Origin: a virus
Length of the DNA: 37,745 bases
IMG/VR virus record: IMGVR_UViG_3300021185_000102
Location: 1 to 37,745 of that record
Strand: one strand, 5' to 3'
The notes beneath the pieces were generated by a model, which saw nothing but the letters and a program-made list of their open reading frames with translations, did not search any database and was not told the DNA's origin. Position numbers and translations under genes: made by a program. This document shows positions 1 to 37,745 of the stretch, piece after piece (the first letter of the stretch is position 1; each line of letters starts with the position of its first letter).

Positions 1-565
1 CCACCACTCACGAACAAAAGCAGTGACCTTGTTAGCCTTGAGCATATCCCCTGCGTCCTTCATGGACAATACGACATTCTTTGCCTTGTTAGGGGTGAAC
101 AAATCAAGGACTGACTTAGCCGCTAACTGCCCTGCTTTATCTGCGTCAAAACAAATGACTACGTTCTCAAAGGACTCTAACCACTCAAGGTTTTCTTTAA
201 TGTCTTTTGATGCTCCATTTGAGCCACTTCTAATGGAGACAACAGGCCATTTTCCGTCAAACATTTCGTGAACTGCAAGTGCGTCTGCCTCGCCCTCTGT
301 GACCGTAATGTATTTACCGCCACCCTTGAAAGCCTGTTGACCGAACAACCCAACATTATTAAATTCTCCTGTAGCATAAAAGTTCTTGTTGTCCACGATG
401 CGTACCTTAGTGCCTAACACTGCACCTGAGTCCTTGTCGTGGTATGGGTAATGATGTTTACTGACCTTCCCATCAGGGGCAAACTCAACGGTGACTCCGT
501 ACTTCTTAGCCACCTCTTGGCTTATTCTCCTGTCAGGGATTGCCGCTACTGTTCCTGTCATTTCC
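1..565. repeat. Left copy of imperfect terminal overlap
   Basis: These 565 bases match 37181-37745 in direct orientation with 11 mismatches (positions 19, 22, 112, 124, 130, 217, 218, 250, 313, 397 and 451) and no gaps, about 98% identity. The repeat lies inside the primase-helicase gene. I read it as overlap of a circular or circularly permuted assembly, not as a true terminal repeat of the virion DNA. Confidence 0.9.
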
Positions 566-4141: not shown

Positions 4142-4720
4142 TCATGCCGCTTTGTCTAGTGGTTCTAGTGCTTCCAGTAATTTCTCTTTGATCTGACATA
4201 GAGAGAGATCAACATCTATAATTGATTGTGACAGTTCACTATCTTGTTCTATTTTGGCTAGTTCTTCCGCGTATGCCGATAGTTGAAACAATGCTTCCGC
4301 TAGTGCTTCGACTGGTGATAATGCTTGACCATTAGGCGCTATTACACTTGCACCTGTAGACGCTTCACCAGTATCGCCTTCACCTTCACCACCATTGCCC
4401 GTGCCTTTACTAGCACCGCGCAACTGTGCTTCGACTAGCTTGCTATCTTTGACAACCATAGCGCGTTTGTCTATATCTAACTCTTTATGTATACGCTTAG
4501 TGACTCTATTAAAGATTGACCGAATCACCGCGAGTGATGCCTTATCCACCGCACAACCTTCCCATAGTGCAACCAGTACCTTTTCCGCGCCTTTACCAGT
4601 AGCAACGTGTACGTTATAAAGCTCGCTTACTATATCAGTCACTTTGGTTTTAACCGCTGTGCCTTCCACTAGTTCAACCGCGAGTTCCTTAGCTTGCTTA
4701 ATTGTCGTTAGCTTTGTCAT
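4142..4720 (-). CDS. Hypothetical protein next to the putative origin
   Basis: A 192-aa protein, the first gene of the minus-strand arm, starting about 20 bp after the non-coding origin region. An N-terminal helical, Lys/Val-rich part (residues 1-100) includes VIRSIFNRVTKRIHKELDIDKR, which could form a basic DNA-binding helix. A Gly/Glu/Thr-rich linker at about 105-125 (GTGNGGEGEGDTGEASTGAS) joins it to a C-terminal helical domain (SPVEALAEALFQLSAYAEELA onwards). The two-domain layout and position would suit an origin-binding or regulatory protein, but no family is recognised and this is inference. AGGTAG precedes the ATG at 4720. Confidence 0.65.
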   Translation of the reverse strand: MTKLTTIKQAKELAVELVEGTAVKTKVTDIVSELYNVHVATGKGAEKVLVALWEGCAVDKASLAVIRSIFNRVTKRIHKELDIDKRAMVVKDSKLVEAQLRGASKGTGNGGEGEGDTGEASTGASVIAPNGQALSPVEALAEALFQLSAYAEELAKIEQDSELSQSIIDVDLSLCQIKEKLLEALEPLDKAA

Positions 4721-4817
4721 AACTACCTACCTATATATGTATCAATGAATGTATGCACATATTAACAAATTGATCGACAGAGTACAATGCTCATTATGCA
4801 TGAACTATCAAAACTAT

Positions 4818-4868
4818 ATGCGCCTAGCGCATGACTACAGTATACCTTTGCATATGCGCGTGTACGCG
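4818..4868. repeat. Cluster of short palindromes
   Basis: Three close inverted repeats: ATGCGC-CTA-GCGCAT (4818-4832), GCATATGC (4850-4857) and CGCG-TGTA-CGCG (4857-4868). TATGCA-like words are scattered through 4750-4920. They lie at the left flank of the iterons and may be protein-binding sites of the origin. Confidence 0.5.
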
Positions 4869-4870
4869 TA

Positions 4871-4986
4871 GCAATAATCATGCCAACTTGTGTATGCTTG
4901 TGTCATGCAATATCTATGCCAATATGTAGCTATAGGTATCCTATGGCATACTCACACTTTACCCATGCAATACCCGTGCCAACATG
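4871..4986 (+). repeat. Three iteron-like 20-bp direct repeats
   Basis: The pattern GCAATA-NNN-RTGCCAA-NNTG occurs at 4871-4890, 4907-4926 and 4967-4986. The first and second copies start 36 bp apart, the second and third 60 bp. The second and third copies are part of a longer 27-bp match (4904-4930 and 4964-4990, 22 of 27 identical). They directly precede the DnaA boxes and resemble initiator-binding iterons. Confidence 0.6.
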
Positions 4987-4994
4987 GAGCCTTG

Positions 4995-5068
4995 TGTATA
5001 ACCTGTGGATAACTTATGCACAGGCCGTGGATACTGGGGATAACTCATGTATAACCTGTGGATAACTT
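4995..5068 (+). repeat. Two DnaA boxes in an exact 21-bp direct repeat
   Basis: The 21 bases at 4995-5015 recur exactly at 5048-5068, 53 bp apart (five helical turns). Each contains TGTGGATAA (5004-5012 and 5057-5065), the reverse complement of the consensus DnaA box TTATCCACA. Weaker boxes lie between them at 5026-5032 and 5036-5044. The spacing would place bound DnaA on one face of the helix. Confidence 0.65.
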
Positions 5069-5305
5069 TTGGGGGCGGGGGGGCCGTGGGTTATCGCAGG
5101 ATTGTTACAGTACCCTCTGGCATACAAAAAAGGAGTAAATTAGGAAAAAAGGGGTGTATCCTTAAGTATACCTAAGTCCTTGAATTACATAAGGAAAACA
5201 CAGGTGGCCCCCTAGTCTTGACACAAGCAGTTAAGGGACACACAGGTTGACACACAAGGGGCTTGGGTGTACTCAATATAATTTAGTAAATATAGAAAAT
5301 AATGC

Positions 5306-5334
5306 TTGACTTTTAGACTGATCTGTGCTATAAT
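5306..5334 (+). promoter_or_regulatory. Sigma70 promoter for the packaging genes
   Basis: TTGACT (5306-5311), a 17-bp spacer and TATAAT (5329-5334) form a near-consensus promoter firing rightward, with a transcript start expected near 5341 and a leader of about 135 bases before the small terminase. It shares an extended sequence, including GTGCTATAATAT and an upstream AAATATAGAAAATA, with the promoter at 10395-10423. Confidence 0.85.
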
Positions 5335-5372
5335 ATCAAGTATACTAAAGCAGTTAAAGGAAGCCGTCCGCG

Positions 5373-5390
5373 CCTTAAGTACCTTAAGTA
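5373..5390 (+). repeat. CCTTAAGTA tandem repeat in the terminase leader
   Basis: CCTTAAGTA occurs twice head to tail (5373-5381, 5382-5390) and once at 5160-5168. Variants occur at 5442-5450 (CTTAAGTAT register) and 5451-5459 (CCTTAAGAT). Each contains the palindrome CTTAAG. They lie mostly in the untranslated leader downstream of the promoter and could be operator or RNA-structure elements. Confidence 0.45.
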
Positions 5391-5475
5391 AACTATAGTA
5401 TTTTACTTTTATTAATAATTAAAGAAAATAACTAAACTCTACTTAAGTATCCTTAAGATAACTAAGGGGAATACT

Positions 5476-5889
5476 TTGAGTAAACCAGAAATAGATAGGT
5501 CAGCCACTGCCGCGAAGCGGAAGGGTCGGCCACCAAACAAATCTGTAGTGTCTAAAACAACAGGTAATAGAAAAGGGGTAGGTCGCCCCAAAGGTGATGC
5601 TTCAATCATCAACGACTATAAAGCTAGGATGCTTGCGTCCCCAAAGTCACGCAAAGTAATGGATGCAATCTTTGATGCGGCTCTTGACAACGATCATAAG
5701 AATCAGTCAGCGGCATGGAAGTTGGTAATGGATAGGATGTTACCTATCAGTTACTTTGAGAAGGAGAAAGGAGGTAGTGGTGGTCGTAGTGCTATCAACA
5801 TCTCTATCACTGGAGTAGGTGGTGAAACCACTGTTATCTCTGGTAATGAACAGCAAGACCCATTAGAGGGAGAAGTTGTCAATGATTAA
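5476..5889 (+). CDS. terS: Terminase small subunit (putative)
   Basis: A 137-aa basic protein that probably recognises the packaging site and loads the large terminase. It starts at TTG (5476), preceded by AAGGGG at a good distance; no ATG is available nearby. The N-terminus has two AT-hook-like motifs, KGRPPNK (about residues 15-21) and GRPKGD (37-42), which would grip the minor groove of AT-rich DNA. A helical middle part (NDYKARMLASPKSRKVMDAIFDAALDN) follows, then a Gly/Ser-rich tail. It comes first in the plus-strand arm, next to endolysin and large terminase, which is the main support for the assignment since small terminases vary greatly in sequence. Confidence 0.7.
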   Translation: MSKPEIDRSATAAKRKGRPPNKSVVSKTTGNRKGVGRPKGDASIINDYKARMLASPKSRKVMDAIFDAALDNDHKNQSAAWKLVMDRMLPISYFEKEKGGSGGRSAINISITGVGGETTVISGNEQQDPLEGEVVND

Positions 5890-7513: not shown

Positions 7514-9466
7514 ATGCTAAATGAAGAAAAAGATCAATTTGTACTAGAACAAACACTTGAAGGATGGGTAATCAATAAATGTCAAGGATGGCGTGATCAC
7601 TTTGATACTAATTATTCATCTAAATTTGACGAATACTATCGGTTATGGAGAGGACAGTGGTCTTCCTTAGACAAAACTAGAGATTCAGAGCGTTCTCGAA
7701 TTATTAGTCCTGCCCTACAACAAGCGGTAGAGTCTTCAGTTGCTGAATTAGAGGAAGCAACCTTTGGTCGAGGCCGTTGGTTTGACATTGAGGATGATGT
7801 AAACGATAAAGAGAAGCGAGACATCTCACTTTTACGTGAAACTTTGTATAAAGACTTCAAAAAGAACAGAATACGTAAAGGTGTTGCTGAGTGTTTACTA
7901 AATGCCGCTGTATTTGGCACAGGTATTGCAGAGATTGTCCTTGAAGAAGAAAAAGAAATGGCTCCTGCAACCCAACCTGTTATGGGAGGCGAATTAACAG
8001 CAGTTGGTGTCAACATAACGGAAAAGACTTGTGTTAAACTCCGTCCTGTAATGCCTCAGAACTTCCTAATAGACCCTTTAGCTACCTCCGTAGAGGAAGC
8101 AATGGGTTGTGCTGTTGATGAGTTTGTATCCTTACATCTAGTTGAGCAATTACAGGAACAAGGAATATATAGGAACGTAGAAGTATCAATGGCGGCTCCT
8201 GATTTTGACATAGAGCCAGATCAAGACTTAGTAGCACACGATGATGATAAAGTACGATTGACTAAATACTATGGTTTAGTACCTAGACATTTATTAGAGA
8301 TGGCTCAAAAGGAATCCGAAGCGGAAGAAATAGCTACATTAGTTGATGACGATGAAGAAAGTAAAAGTTATTATGTGGAAGCTATTGTTGTAATTGCTAA
8401 TGATGGCACTTTGCTAAAAGCGGAATCTAATCCTTATATGATGGGTGATAGACCTATTATAGCATTCCCTTGGGATGTTGTTCCTAGCCGTTTTTGGGGT
8501 AGAGGGGTATGTGAGAAAGGATATAACTCACAAAAGGCGTTAGACGCTGAAATACGAGCTAGAATTGACGCTCTTGCGCTTACTATACACCCTATGTTAG
8601 CTATGGACGCTACAAGGATGCCTAGAGGCGCTAGACCTGAAGTACGTGCAGGTAAAGTTATCTTAACTAACGGTGCGCCTAATGAAGTTATACAACCATT
8701 TAACTTTGGCAATGTAAGTCAAATTAGCTTTGCACAGGCTGACGCTTTACAGCGTATGGTACAGACAGCTACAGGCGCTGTTGATTCCGCAGGTATCTCA
8801 GGATCAATCAATGGTGATTCCACTGCCGCAGGTATCTCTATGAGCTTAGGCGCTATCATTAAGCGTCATAAGCGAACTTTAATTAACTTCCAAGAATCTT
8901 TCCTGATTCCTTTTGTAACTAAAGCCGCACACCGTTATATGCAGTTTAATCCTGAAGCATATCCTGTTGCTGACTACAAGTTCCACACTTCCAGTTCACT
9001 GGGCATTATTGCGCGTGAGTACGAAGTTACACAGCTTGTACAGTTGTTACAAACCATGTCACCTGAAACTCCAATGTACTCACAGCTTATTATGTCTATC
9101 ATTGATAACATGAACGTAGGTAATCGTGAGGAACTTATAGCGGCTCTTGAAAAAGCTAATCAGCCTGATCCTGAAGCACAACAAGCACAACAAGCGGCTC
9201 AGGAATCACAGTTGGCATTCCAAGCGTCACAGACTGCGGCCTTAGAAGGACAAGCTATTGAATCACAAGCACGAGCGCAGAAGCTTGCTACTGAAGCTCA
9301 ATCTATACCTCAAGAGTTAGAGATTGACAAGATTAAAGCTATCACTACTAATATACGAGAAGGTAATGACGATGACCGCGAGTTTGAAAGAAGGCTTAAG
9401 GTTTCCGATCAATTACTAAAAGAAAGAGAAGTAGCAATTAAAGAGAGAGGACGTACTAATGGCTAA
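7514..9466 (+). CDS. Portal protein
   Basis: A 650-aa protein, the dodecameric ring at the capsid vertex through which DNA enters and leaves, and on which the tail is built. Size, position directly after the large terminase, and features of the podovirus portal type support it: a helical N-terminus with YYRLWRGQW and SRIISPALQQAVESSVAELEEATFG, a beta-rich wing region around residues 150-330, and PFVTKAAHRYMQFNPEAYPVADYK. The last 100 residues are a Gln/Ala-rich helix (NQPDPEAQQAQQAAQESQ onwards), matching the C-terminal barrel helix of P22-type portals. It starts 1 bp after the terminase stop and overlaps the next gene by 8 bp. Confidence 0.88.
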   Translation: MLNEEKDQFVLEQTLEGWVINKCQGWRDHFDTNYSSKFDEYYRLWRGQWSSLDKTRDSERSRIISPALQQAVESSVAELEEATFGRGRWFDIEDDVNDKEKRDISLLRETLYKDFKKNRIRKGVAECLLNAAVFGTGIAEIVLEEEKEMAPATQPVMGGELTAVGVNITEKTCVKLRPVMPQNFLIDPLATSVEEAMGCAVDEFVSLHLVEQLQEQGIYRNVEVSMAAPDFDIEPDQDLVAHDDDKVRLTKYYGLVPRHLLEMAQKESEAEEIATLVDDDEESKSYYVEAIVVIANDGTLLKAESNPYMMGDRPIIAFPWDVVPSRFWGRGVCEKGYNSQKALDAEIRARIDALALTIHPMLAMDATRMPRGARPEVRAGKVILTNGAPNEVIQPFNFGNVSQISFAQADALQRMVQTATGAVDSAGISGSINGDSTAAGISMSLGAIIKRHKRTLINFQESFLIPFVTKAAHRYMQFNPEAYPVADYKFHTSSSLGIIAREYEVTQLVQLLQTMSPETPMYSQLIMSIIDNMNVGNREELIAALEKANQPDPEAQQAQQAAQESQLAFQASQTAALEGQAIESQARAQKLATEAQSIPQELEIDKIKAITTNIREGNDDDREFERRLKVSDQLLKEREVAIKERGRTNG

Positions 9467-32374: not shown

Positions 32375-32739
32375 TAACTATTCTCCTTGGAAACCATAAT
32401 GGTTAGTTTGTTTAAGTACCACTTAGCTTTATTTAAGTCCTCTACCTGCTTGCCCTTATAGTCGTACCTCCAAAGGTACTTCATACAGTTGCCCTTGAGG
32501 TATCCTTTGAATGCTACTGAAGACATGGACTCCTCTATAGCTTCAATACACTCAATGTTGCCAGTGTTGTAATGCTTTGGCTTATTAACTACGTCTTCAA
32601 GCTCTTCATCTGCAATGACATGGTAGGCTGTCATGGCCTCGTCAGTGACTATATAACTCTTAGGGCCGCAGGGTATTATAGCAGGATGTTCCTTAGCTAC
32701 CCTATCCCAATCAGCAGGAGTTGCGTCATTAAGTCTCAT
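32374..32739 (-). CDS. DUF3310 protein (possible nucleotide kinase)
   Basis: A 121-aa protein. Residues 50-115 match the DUF3310/SaV-like family: VVNKPKHYNTGNIECIEAIE, then FKGYLKGNCMKYLWRYDYKG and DLNKAKWYLNKL. T7 gp1.7, which phosphorylates nucleotides, is I believe related to this family, so a role in nucleotide supply is plausible, especially directly beside the reductase. Residues 1-50 are a separate short region (PADWDRVAKEHPAIIPCGPK). It overlaps the reductase by one base and the upstream 55-aa gene by 11 bp. Confidence 0.78.
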   Translation of the reverse strand: MRLNDATPADWDRVAKEHPAIIPCGPKSYIVTDEAMTAYHVIADEELEDVVNKPKHYNTGNIECIEAIEESMSSVAFKGYLKGNCMKYLWRYDYKGKQVEDLNKAKWYLNKLTIMVSKENS

Positions 32740-32896
32740 CTTCAGTATCCTCTGTAAATTTATCTCTATTAATAATTAAGCGATCTTCAAAAGCTTCCAA
32801 AATATCTTCAGGGGTTATGTCTAACACTTCACACAACAGAACAACATCGTACTCCCTTATTACTTCTTCCTTTAATTCCTCAAGTGTTAGTGACAT
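32729..32896 (-). CDS. 55-aa acidic hypothetical protein
   Basis: A short ORF, ATG at 32896 and TAA at 32729-32731. The product MSLTLEELKEEVIREYDVVL is helical and acidic, continuing with LCEVLDITPEDILEAFEDRL, which resembles the small all-helical partner proteins next to endonuclease I genes in marine podophages. It overlaps the endonuclease I gene by 17 bp and the DUF3310 gene by 11 bp, so a coding role is strongly suggested by the tight overlap. Function unknown. Confidence 0.65.
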   Translation of the reverse strand: MSLTLEELKEEVIREYDVVLLCEVLDITPEDILEAFEDRLIINRDKFTEDTEDET

Positions 32897-36295: not shown

Positions 36296-37745
36296 TTAAA
36301 ACTCCGATTCTTCACCCATAGGGCAACTAGTTTCAATCATCCGACCTGTCTCTTTATCATAGTAAAGGTAACAAGCCGCACCAGTGAGTCCAACAAATCT
36401 GTTCTTGAGTACACGAACTGTTGTGGTGTTCCGTGTCTCAGGGTCAGCGTGTTGCTGATCTCGTTCAAGTCCAATGACCATATCACTTAGCTGTGCGATA
36501 GCCGCTGAACCACGTAGTTCTCCTAAACTAATCTTACCACCATCTTCATGTGCCTTTGAGCCGCTAGGTCTACGCAAGTGTGATACTAGGAATAGCCCTA
36601 CACCTGTCTCCTGAACTAGCTTTCTAAGGTTAGTCATAATGCTGTCGATGGCTTTACGCTCGTCTCCATTGTCCTGATCGCTAACCACAATGCTTAGGTG
36701 ATCAAGAATGATCCACTTGCAGTCCAACCCTTTAGCCATATAACGTATGCGCCCAAGTAGGTTGTCCTCATTAGTAGAACCCCAGTGATCAAACATATAG
36801 ATGCGCCCAGAGCCTAACGTCTTATCCCAATAACTCTTCTTCTCTTCCTCAGAGATAGTCTGGTTAAGATGTAGTTGCTTCTCAGCTTCAATGGACATGA
36901 TGCCTAATGCTGTCTTAGGTATGTCCTCTTCCAACGCTAGGATGCCTATGTTGTCCTCCGTAGCACCTAGCAAGTAATGCTCTAACTCACGTACCATCTG
37001 AGACTTACCCATGCCGCTACCACTAGTGATTGTGACTAACTCACGAGGACGGAAGCCATAGGTGTACTCATTCAGACAAGCCCAAGGATAGGGTATGGAC
37101 TTGACATCGGATTGCTTGATGATTAAATCCCAAGTCTCATTACCTGCAATGATTCCATCAGGCTGATATGACTTAGCGTTCCACCACTCACGAACAAAGG
37201 CTGTGACCTTGTTAGCCTTGAGCATATCCCCTGCGTCCTTCATGGACAATACGACATTCTTTGCCTTGTTAGGGGTGAACAAATCAAGGACAGACTTAGC
37301 CGCCAACTGTCCTGCTTTATCTGCGTCAAAACAAATGACTACGTTCTCAAAGGACTCTAACCACTCAAGGTTTTCTTTAATGTCTTTTGATGCTCCGCTT
37401 GAGCCACTTCTAATGGAGACAACAGGCCACTTTCCGTCAAACATTTCGTGAACTGCAAGTGCGTCTGCCTCGCCCTCTGTGACCGTAATGTACTTACCGC
37501 CACCCTTGAAAGCCTGTTGACCGAACAACCCAACATTATTAAATTCTCCTGTAGCATAAAAGTTCTTGTTGTCCACAATGCGTACCTTAGTGCCTAACAC
37601 TGCACCTGAGTCCTTGTCGTGGTATGGGTAGTGATGTTTACTGACCTTCCCATCAGGGGCAAACTCAACGGTGACTCCGTACTTCTTAGCCACCTCTTGG
37701 CTTATTCTCCTGTCAGGGATTGCCGCTACTGTTCCTGTCATTTCC
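36296..37745 (-). CDS. Primase-helicase (T7 gp4-like), C-terminal part
   Basis: The major part of the bifunctional primase-helicase: TOPRIM motifs VTEGEADA and CFDADKAG, then the hexameric DnaB/gp4-type helicase with Walker A ITSGSGMGKSQMVRE, H2 KWIILDHLSIVVSD, H3 GVGLFLVSHLR and LGELRGSAAIAQLSDMVIGL. The frame runs off the window at 37745. Its first internal ATG at 37741 is residue 59 of the full protein, so a 481-aa reading from there would miss the zinc domain found at the other end (566-735). It overlaps in sequence with the left copy (1-565), and joining the ends restores the full gene. Confidence 0.95.
   Translation of the reverse strand, partial: EMTGTVAAIPDRRISQEVAKKYGVTVEFAPDGKVSKHHYPYHDKDSGAVLGTKVRIVDNKNFYATGEFNNVGLFGQQAFKGGGKYITVTEGEADALAVHEMFDGKWPVVSIRSGSSGASKDIKENLEWLESFENVVICFDADKAGQLAAKSVLDLFTPNKAKNVVLSMKDAGDMLKANKVTAFVREWWNAKSYQPDGIIAGNETWDLIIKQSDVKSIPYPWACLNEYTYGFRPRELVTITSGSGMGKSQMVRELEHYLLGATEDNIGILALEEDIPKTALGIMSIEAEKQLHLNQTISEEEKKSYWDKTLGSGRIYMFDHWGSTNEDNLLGRIRYMAKGLDCKWIILDHLSIVVSDQDNGDERKAIDSIMTNLRKLVQETGVGLFLVSHLRRPSGSKAHEDGGKISLGELRGSAAIAQLSDMVIGLERDQQHADPETRNTTTVRVLKNRFVGLTGAACYLYYDKETGRMIETSCPMGEESEF
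37181..37745. repeat. Right copy of imperfect terminal overlap
   Basis: Direct copy of bases 1-565 (offset 37180). Of the 11 differing bases, nine are single changes, each in its own codon and each synonymous. The other two share one codon (37397-37399) and give Ser here, Asn in the left copy. This pattern fits two natural variants rather than sequencing error. Confidence 0.9.

Follow-up and report, generated by a model that had tools for sequence, protein, structure and literature searches.

How does a phage that carries T7-type replication genes start DNA synthesis when it has no RNA polymerase of its own? In T7, replication starts from transcription by the phage's own RNA polymerase. The question is raised by a divergent intergenic region of the viral record IMGVR_UViG_3300021185_000102 (37,745 nt; this whole stretch is referred to as the window hereafter). 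Genes for a T7-type primase-helicase, a family A polymerase, a gp2.5-like SSB, an endonuclease, and a Cas4-type exonuclease were found in the window. In contrast, a T7-type (single-subunit) RNA polymerase, which a T7-type primary origin requires, was detected neither in the window nor in 11 relatives, while it was detected in the positive control, phage HTVC120P. The ends of the record overlap by 565 bp at 98% identity (window positions 1–565 and 37181–37745), despite its classification as linear, and the primase-helicase gene is divided across both ends. This overlap implies a true genome size of about 37.2 kb and a near-complete record; the assembly was probably drawn from mixed strains.

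The divergent intergenic region (4721–5475) lies between a leftward replication arm and a rightward structural arm. The first gene of the replication arm (4142–4720, minus strand) encodes 192 aa with no assigned function, and that of the structural arm (5476–5889, plus strand) encodes 137 aa and is small-terminase-like by position only, with no family match; the terminase and portal genes come after it. About 100 relatives were obtained by terminase and neighbour-gene searches of viral contigs, and about 60 further ones by two pattern scans, where genes of this phage group were present on all but two of the contigs. The locus comparison was based on 56 non-redundant aligned loci. A DNA search of the phage collection gave no relatives. 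The group consists of small marine bacterial viruses, and is large and uncultured. Host assignment via genome contigs yielded only three mixed MAG contigs (Sphingobacteriales, Verrucomicrobiales, and Crocinitomicaceae) and was not trusted. Throughout the group, a small conserved acidic protein (55 aa; 32729–32896, minus strand, in the window) is encoded between the endonuclease and kinase-like genes.

The first-pass annotation had pointed to a DnaA-type origin here, and its description of the boxes was confirmed. Two perfect DnaA boxes, TGTGGATAA, are located at 5004–5012 and 5057–5065 (motif matches, TTATCCACA on the minus strand), 53 bp apart and inside a 21-bp exact repeat; these are the only perfect boxes in the window, and the second is 5 bp from the G tract GGGGGCGGGGGGG (5071–5083, plus strand). 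Three weaker boxes, each with one mismatch, accompany them: TTATACACA at 4993–5001 (minus strand), from which the next box is at 11 bp, TTATGCACA at 5014–5022 (plus, i.e., the opposite strand), and the weak TTATCCCCA at 5035–5043 (minus strand). Over the whole genome, boxes with one mismatch or none show no enrichment (12 versus 10.3 expected); 5 of these 12 are packed into 73 bp, where about 0.02 are expected. A DnaA-box array thus does accompany T7-type replication genes in a phage that has no RNA polymerase of its own, and this combination is kept in relatives. The proposed comparison of box spacing in relatives disclosed a conserved phasing: their boxes are almost all on the same strand, the spacings between perfect boxes peak at 11, 22, 33, and 55 bp, and 55 of 120 pairs are exact multiples of 11, so that a cluster of phased boxes of the oriC type is present. 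The 11-bp spacing corresponds to the pitch of cooperative DnaA arrays, and slipped 11-bp duplications could contribute to it. The variation among relatives is greatest at position 5, the tolerated base (N) of TTATNCACA, and in 33 of 40 box-bearing loci a gap of 3–5 bp separates the last perfect box and the G tract. The conservation, the 11/22/33-bp phasing, and the drift mainly at the fifth base are together strong evidence for a genuine array, probably read by host DnaA or by something with its exact specificity; on this basis, we infer that DnaA occupies the array.

The first-pass annotation regarded conservation of boxes or repeats among relatives with the same genes as decisive. About one third of such relatives have neither; a sigma70 promoter is placed at the corresponding G tract instead, so that DnaA appears to be one of two interchangeable solutions. 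In eleven loci, an extended −10 sigma70 promoter (T[TA]GACM-N12-TRTGN-TA) replaces the array or, in the hybrid L039, is added to the boxes. These promoters end between 2 bp inside and 7 bp before the G tract, and the transcription start would fall in or beside the G tract. Another hybrid, L027, has boxes and a promoter with a decayed −35 element, where close relatives read TTGACA. In three box-less genomes, no perfect box occurs within about 20 kb of sequence each. The G tract is present with neither module recognisable in some loci (L008, L012, L018, and L080 are examples), and no sigma70 promoter is recognisable at the G tract of the window. In a quickly built TerL tree with 47 rows, the box and promoter types switch at least nine times, in some cases between near-identical TerL sequences (L030 versus L027 and L150). 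Since TerL may itself recombine against the region, the tree reveals repeated exchange but not the exchange unit. Directly upstream of the −35 element of the G-tract promoter, four box-less loci (L059, L062, L064, and L076) have inverted repeats, CGTGAC...GGTCAC, which are probably an activator or repressor site. In a 46-kb contig whose TerL match is only remote (L131, 290–390), a DnaA array is found just upstream of a TTGACT promoter-like sequence.

The best conserved intergenic columns among the 56 aligned loci include the G tract, two blocks designated R1 and R2, and the rightward sigma70 promoter P_R. Block R2 (GTACCCTCTGGCATACAAAAAAGG, 5110–5133) has the pattern GTACCC-N4-GGCATACAAAAAAG and is 37–40 bp from the start of the G tract in nearly all of the 56 loci; judging from this alignment, the invariant core is the G tract plus R2. 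Block R1 (4935–4956, minus strand) corresponds in relatives to the extended −10 element of a leftward sigma70 promoter, P_L (TATGC-TATAGG). Several relatives have a TTGACA-like −35 element there, and the copy in the window is without a good one. P_R (5306–5334, plus strand; TTGACT-N17-TATAAT with an extended −10) is intact in box-type and box-less relatives alike. R1, which overlaps the −10 element of the leftward promoter, and R2 share GTAYCC-N4-GNATAC, as if a single protein binds on each side of the switch. Conserved palindromic CTTAAGTATACTTAAG-like repeats at 5161–5176, 5382–5408, and 5442–5457, near P_R and the beginning of the first gene of the structural arm, are possible operators of a phage regulator.

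Three GCAATA-N3-RTGCCAA repeats are present in the window as noted before, with 16-bp cores at 4871–4886, 4907–4922, and 4967–4982 (spaced by 36 and 60 bp). They had been taken as iterons 1–3, bound by an initiator. On the minus strand, they read TTGGCAYnnnTATTGC and have the GG-N10-GC spacing, with the TGGCAC/TTGC elements, of the sigma54 −24/−12 promoter consensus TGGCACnnTTnTTGC (PMC8743547). With an approximate matrix written after the published consensus, site a (TTGGCATGATTATTGCT, 4870–4886), site b (TTGGCATAGATATTGCA, 4906–4922), and site c (TTGGCACGGGTATTGCA, 4966–4982), all on the minus strand, rank third, fourth, and first in the window, respectively. Site c, the best of the genome, scores 21.2 bits, compared with a mean best score of 14.4 and a highest score of 19.0 in 100 Markov genomes, and its 17-mer was counted 18 times among the 56 loci. 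Across relatives, 63 sigma54-type sites are oriented leftward, into the replication arm, and 12 rightward; the latter weaken a pure promoter reading, and a protein-binding site usable in either orientation would also fit. In the window, a sigma54 site sits about where relatives have the −35 element of P_L. The repeats are found only together with boxes: among loci found through TerL alone, 11 of the 15 box-type loci contain them, versus 0 of 17 others. The best explanation is that they are near-perfect sigma54-type sites directed into the replication arm, which sigma54 would use, and not initiator iterons. No enhancer-binding protein was found in the phage, nor was an NtrC-like site identified. 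A sigma54-like site at 7914 (plus strand) is inside the portal gene and is probably a coding coincidence.

Is the interval an origin? AT-rich DNA beyond the array, as reported in the first-pass annotation, was verified at 5376–5460: this stretch is the second least stable of the genome and a candidate unwinding region, 310 bp from the array. The least stable DNA, at 1141–1250 just upstream of the SSB gene, is a second unwinding candidate. The GC skew, suggested earlier as a check, does flip at 5.0 kb, but this cannot be counted as origin evidence because the skew follows gene direction at both ends: its minimum (5.0 kb) and maximum (30.5 kb) coincide with gene-direction switches, and the maximum is not opposite the minimum. 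The array also differs from an oriC-type arrangement, in which a DUE or DnaA-trios occur within 16 bp 3′ of the TTATCCACA boxes. None was found there, and 31 of 35 arrays have fewer than three NAN triplets, like control positions. The DUE of E. coli is on the opposite side of TGTGGATAA relative to the G tract of the window (the polarity was checked on E. coli oriC and against PMC8287927). Going by motif orientation, the polarity of the array is therefore wrong for a DUE of the E. coli type on the side of the G tract; a role of the G tract as GC spacer in a bacterial unwinding system was also rejected, as it is on the wrong side and without trios.

Taken together, the interval can be read as a divergent control and probable replication-initiation region, where host DnaA or host RNA polymerase opens the DNA at the conserved G tract; we assign this reading a probability of about 0.5, and the odds that the interval is the replication origin seem even to us. 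The duplex would first be opened at the conserved core, G tract plus R2, and the module just upstream of it would be exchangeable, with host machinery as its reader. In most relatives, as in the window, the same-strand, helically phased array would nucleate a host DnaA oligomer that ends 4–5 bp from the G tract; in others, the sigma70 promoter would yield a transcript starting in the G tract. In the promoter form, a start in a non-template-strand G run would favour R-loops, for which G-rich R-loop priming at mitochondrial CSBII (PMC6317783) is a precedent. A promoter upstream of such a G cluster is found in 11 box-less or hybrid relatives and is not recognisable in the window; thus, the R-loop idea rests on the relatives. 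In the array form, the DnaA oligomer may melt the G run or stimulate a weak start, as DnaA stimulates transcription at ori-lambda (PMC3985674). The opening would expose DNA for the T7-type helicase. As P_R is a strong promoter and intact in both types, the G-tract promoter or array is not needed for right-arm expression, and with the right arm served by P_R, opening the DNA for this helicase is the simplest use of the module. The opening may then prime replication, possibly via a G-rich R-loop or DnaA-stimulated transcription.

The main rival is a purely transcriptional switch, in which the boxes and sigma54 sites adjust the early operons of both arms to host physiology and replication starts elsewhere. 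We consider it rather unlikely, although the array sits between P_L with the sigma54 sites and P_R, the location of the window's sigma54 site near the P_L −35 position fits it, an interaction of DnaA with RNA polymerase is cited in PMC3985674, and a DnaA-trio or DUE is missing beside the array. The dispensability of the G-tract module for the right arm, whose P_R is 230 bp further on, argues against the switch, and the fixed geometry of G tract and R2 suggests more than a promoter. The same elements, with R1, might instead be recognition or cleavage elements of the terminase at a packaging or concatemer-junction site, the host sites being incidental. The region is just upstream of the terminase genes, and the ends of linear records of Saffermanviridae (A-4L and Pf-WMP3) fall between the same divergent arms. 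However, contigs run through the region with no excess of ends (the contig-end hazard near the G tract is 0.12 per 250 bp, within the range elsewhere), and the exchange of promoter and DnaA modules is left unexplained; we regard this explanation as improbable.

Still less credible is the model of the first-pass annotation, in which DnaA acts together with an iteron-binding initiator of the phage, much as in iteron plasmids. The repeats do adjoin the boxes and occur only with them, and their sites are seen in both orientations. An unrelated 44-kb viral contig (L141, 8239–8345) does resemble such a layout: its DnaA array adjoins three GGAACGTTTAGAGTTTTTTTT repeats and AT-rich DNA, in what looks like a classical origin of the iteron-plus-DnaA kind. 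Nevertheless, the repeats of the present group match the sigma54 consensus and are not regular tandem iterons, with 1–4 copies per locus and irregular spacings (28, 36, 60, and 101 bp), and no cognate Rep gene travels with them. A gene-content comparison of box-type and box-less genomes gave no discriminating gene, and no phage gene confined to repeat-bearing genomes was found; thus, a phage initiator is unsupported. Two candidates were rejected: the 192-aa neighbour (4142–4720) as an iteron binder is missing from many repeat-bearing loci, and the 55-aa gene at 32729–32896, box-specific at first sight, has a shorter homologue in box-less genomes. Finally, many phage copies could titrate DnaA and halt host initiation in a datA-like manner, most relatives having several boxes per genome. 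Such a sponge would need neither the fixed spacing of 4–5 bp to the G tract, nor the alternation with a promoter, nor a shared strand, and we give it very little credence.

The preferred reading, opening of the DNA at the G tract by host DnaA or host RNA polymerase, can be compared with known systems. With the T7 primary origin, the phage shares gp4/gp5/gp2.5-type genes and, in some relatives, a promoter followed by AT-rich DNA; unlike T7, it is without a phage RNA polymerase, and host sigma70 or host DnaA would stand in its place. Similar to the left DnaA-oligomerisation region of E. coli oriC, it has an array of TTATCCACA-type boxes that share a strand and are separated by gaps of 2 bp (11-bp pitch), but no DUE or DnaA-trio is found 3′ of the boxes, and the G tract is on the other side. 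As at ori-lambda, where transcription near the origin activates replication, host DnaA boxes are found beside a promoter. However, lambda encodes an iteron-bound initiator, O, and relies on the DnaB of its host, whereas the phage here encodes a T7-type primase-helicase and polymerase, and its boxes replace the promoter rather than assist it. The promoter of box-less relatives feeds a non-template-strand G cluster as in the mitochondrial LSP-CSBII R-loop primer (PMC6317783), although the phage start would be in or beside the G run itself and the R-loop is here a proposal from sequence. The Saffermanviridae A-4L and Pf-WMP3 resemble the group in their divergent arms, primase-helicase, family A polymerase, and Cas4-type exonuclease (the capsid is about 27–33% identical), but no DnaA array or G tract is present at their divergence; no equivalent array was found in the cyanophages A-4L, Pf-WMP3, and CHP58.

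Phage origins with DnaA boxes nearby and origins driven by RNA polymerase are already known. A limited search of open-access literature gave no case in which an array and a promoter are exchanged at a fixed G tract in phages with T7-type replisomes and with sigma54-type sites in the replication arm. Tentatively, we suggest that a widespread lineage may start replication at one G tract via two exchangeable host engines, a DnaA filament or sigma70 RNA polymerase, which have been repeatedly exchanged, and that the DnaA form may also put the replication operon under host sigma54. If true, this would explain how T7-type replisomes operate without T7 RNA polymerase, and would mean that an initiator-driven start and a transcription-driven one can be substituted for one another at a single site; the functional equivalence of DnaA and RNA polymerase in opening DNA would thereby become testable. 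It would also mean that a phage ties its replication arm to sigma54, a nitrogen and stress regulator of the host.
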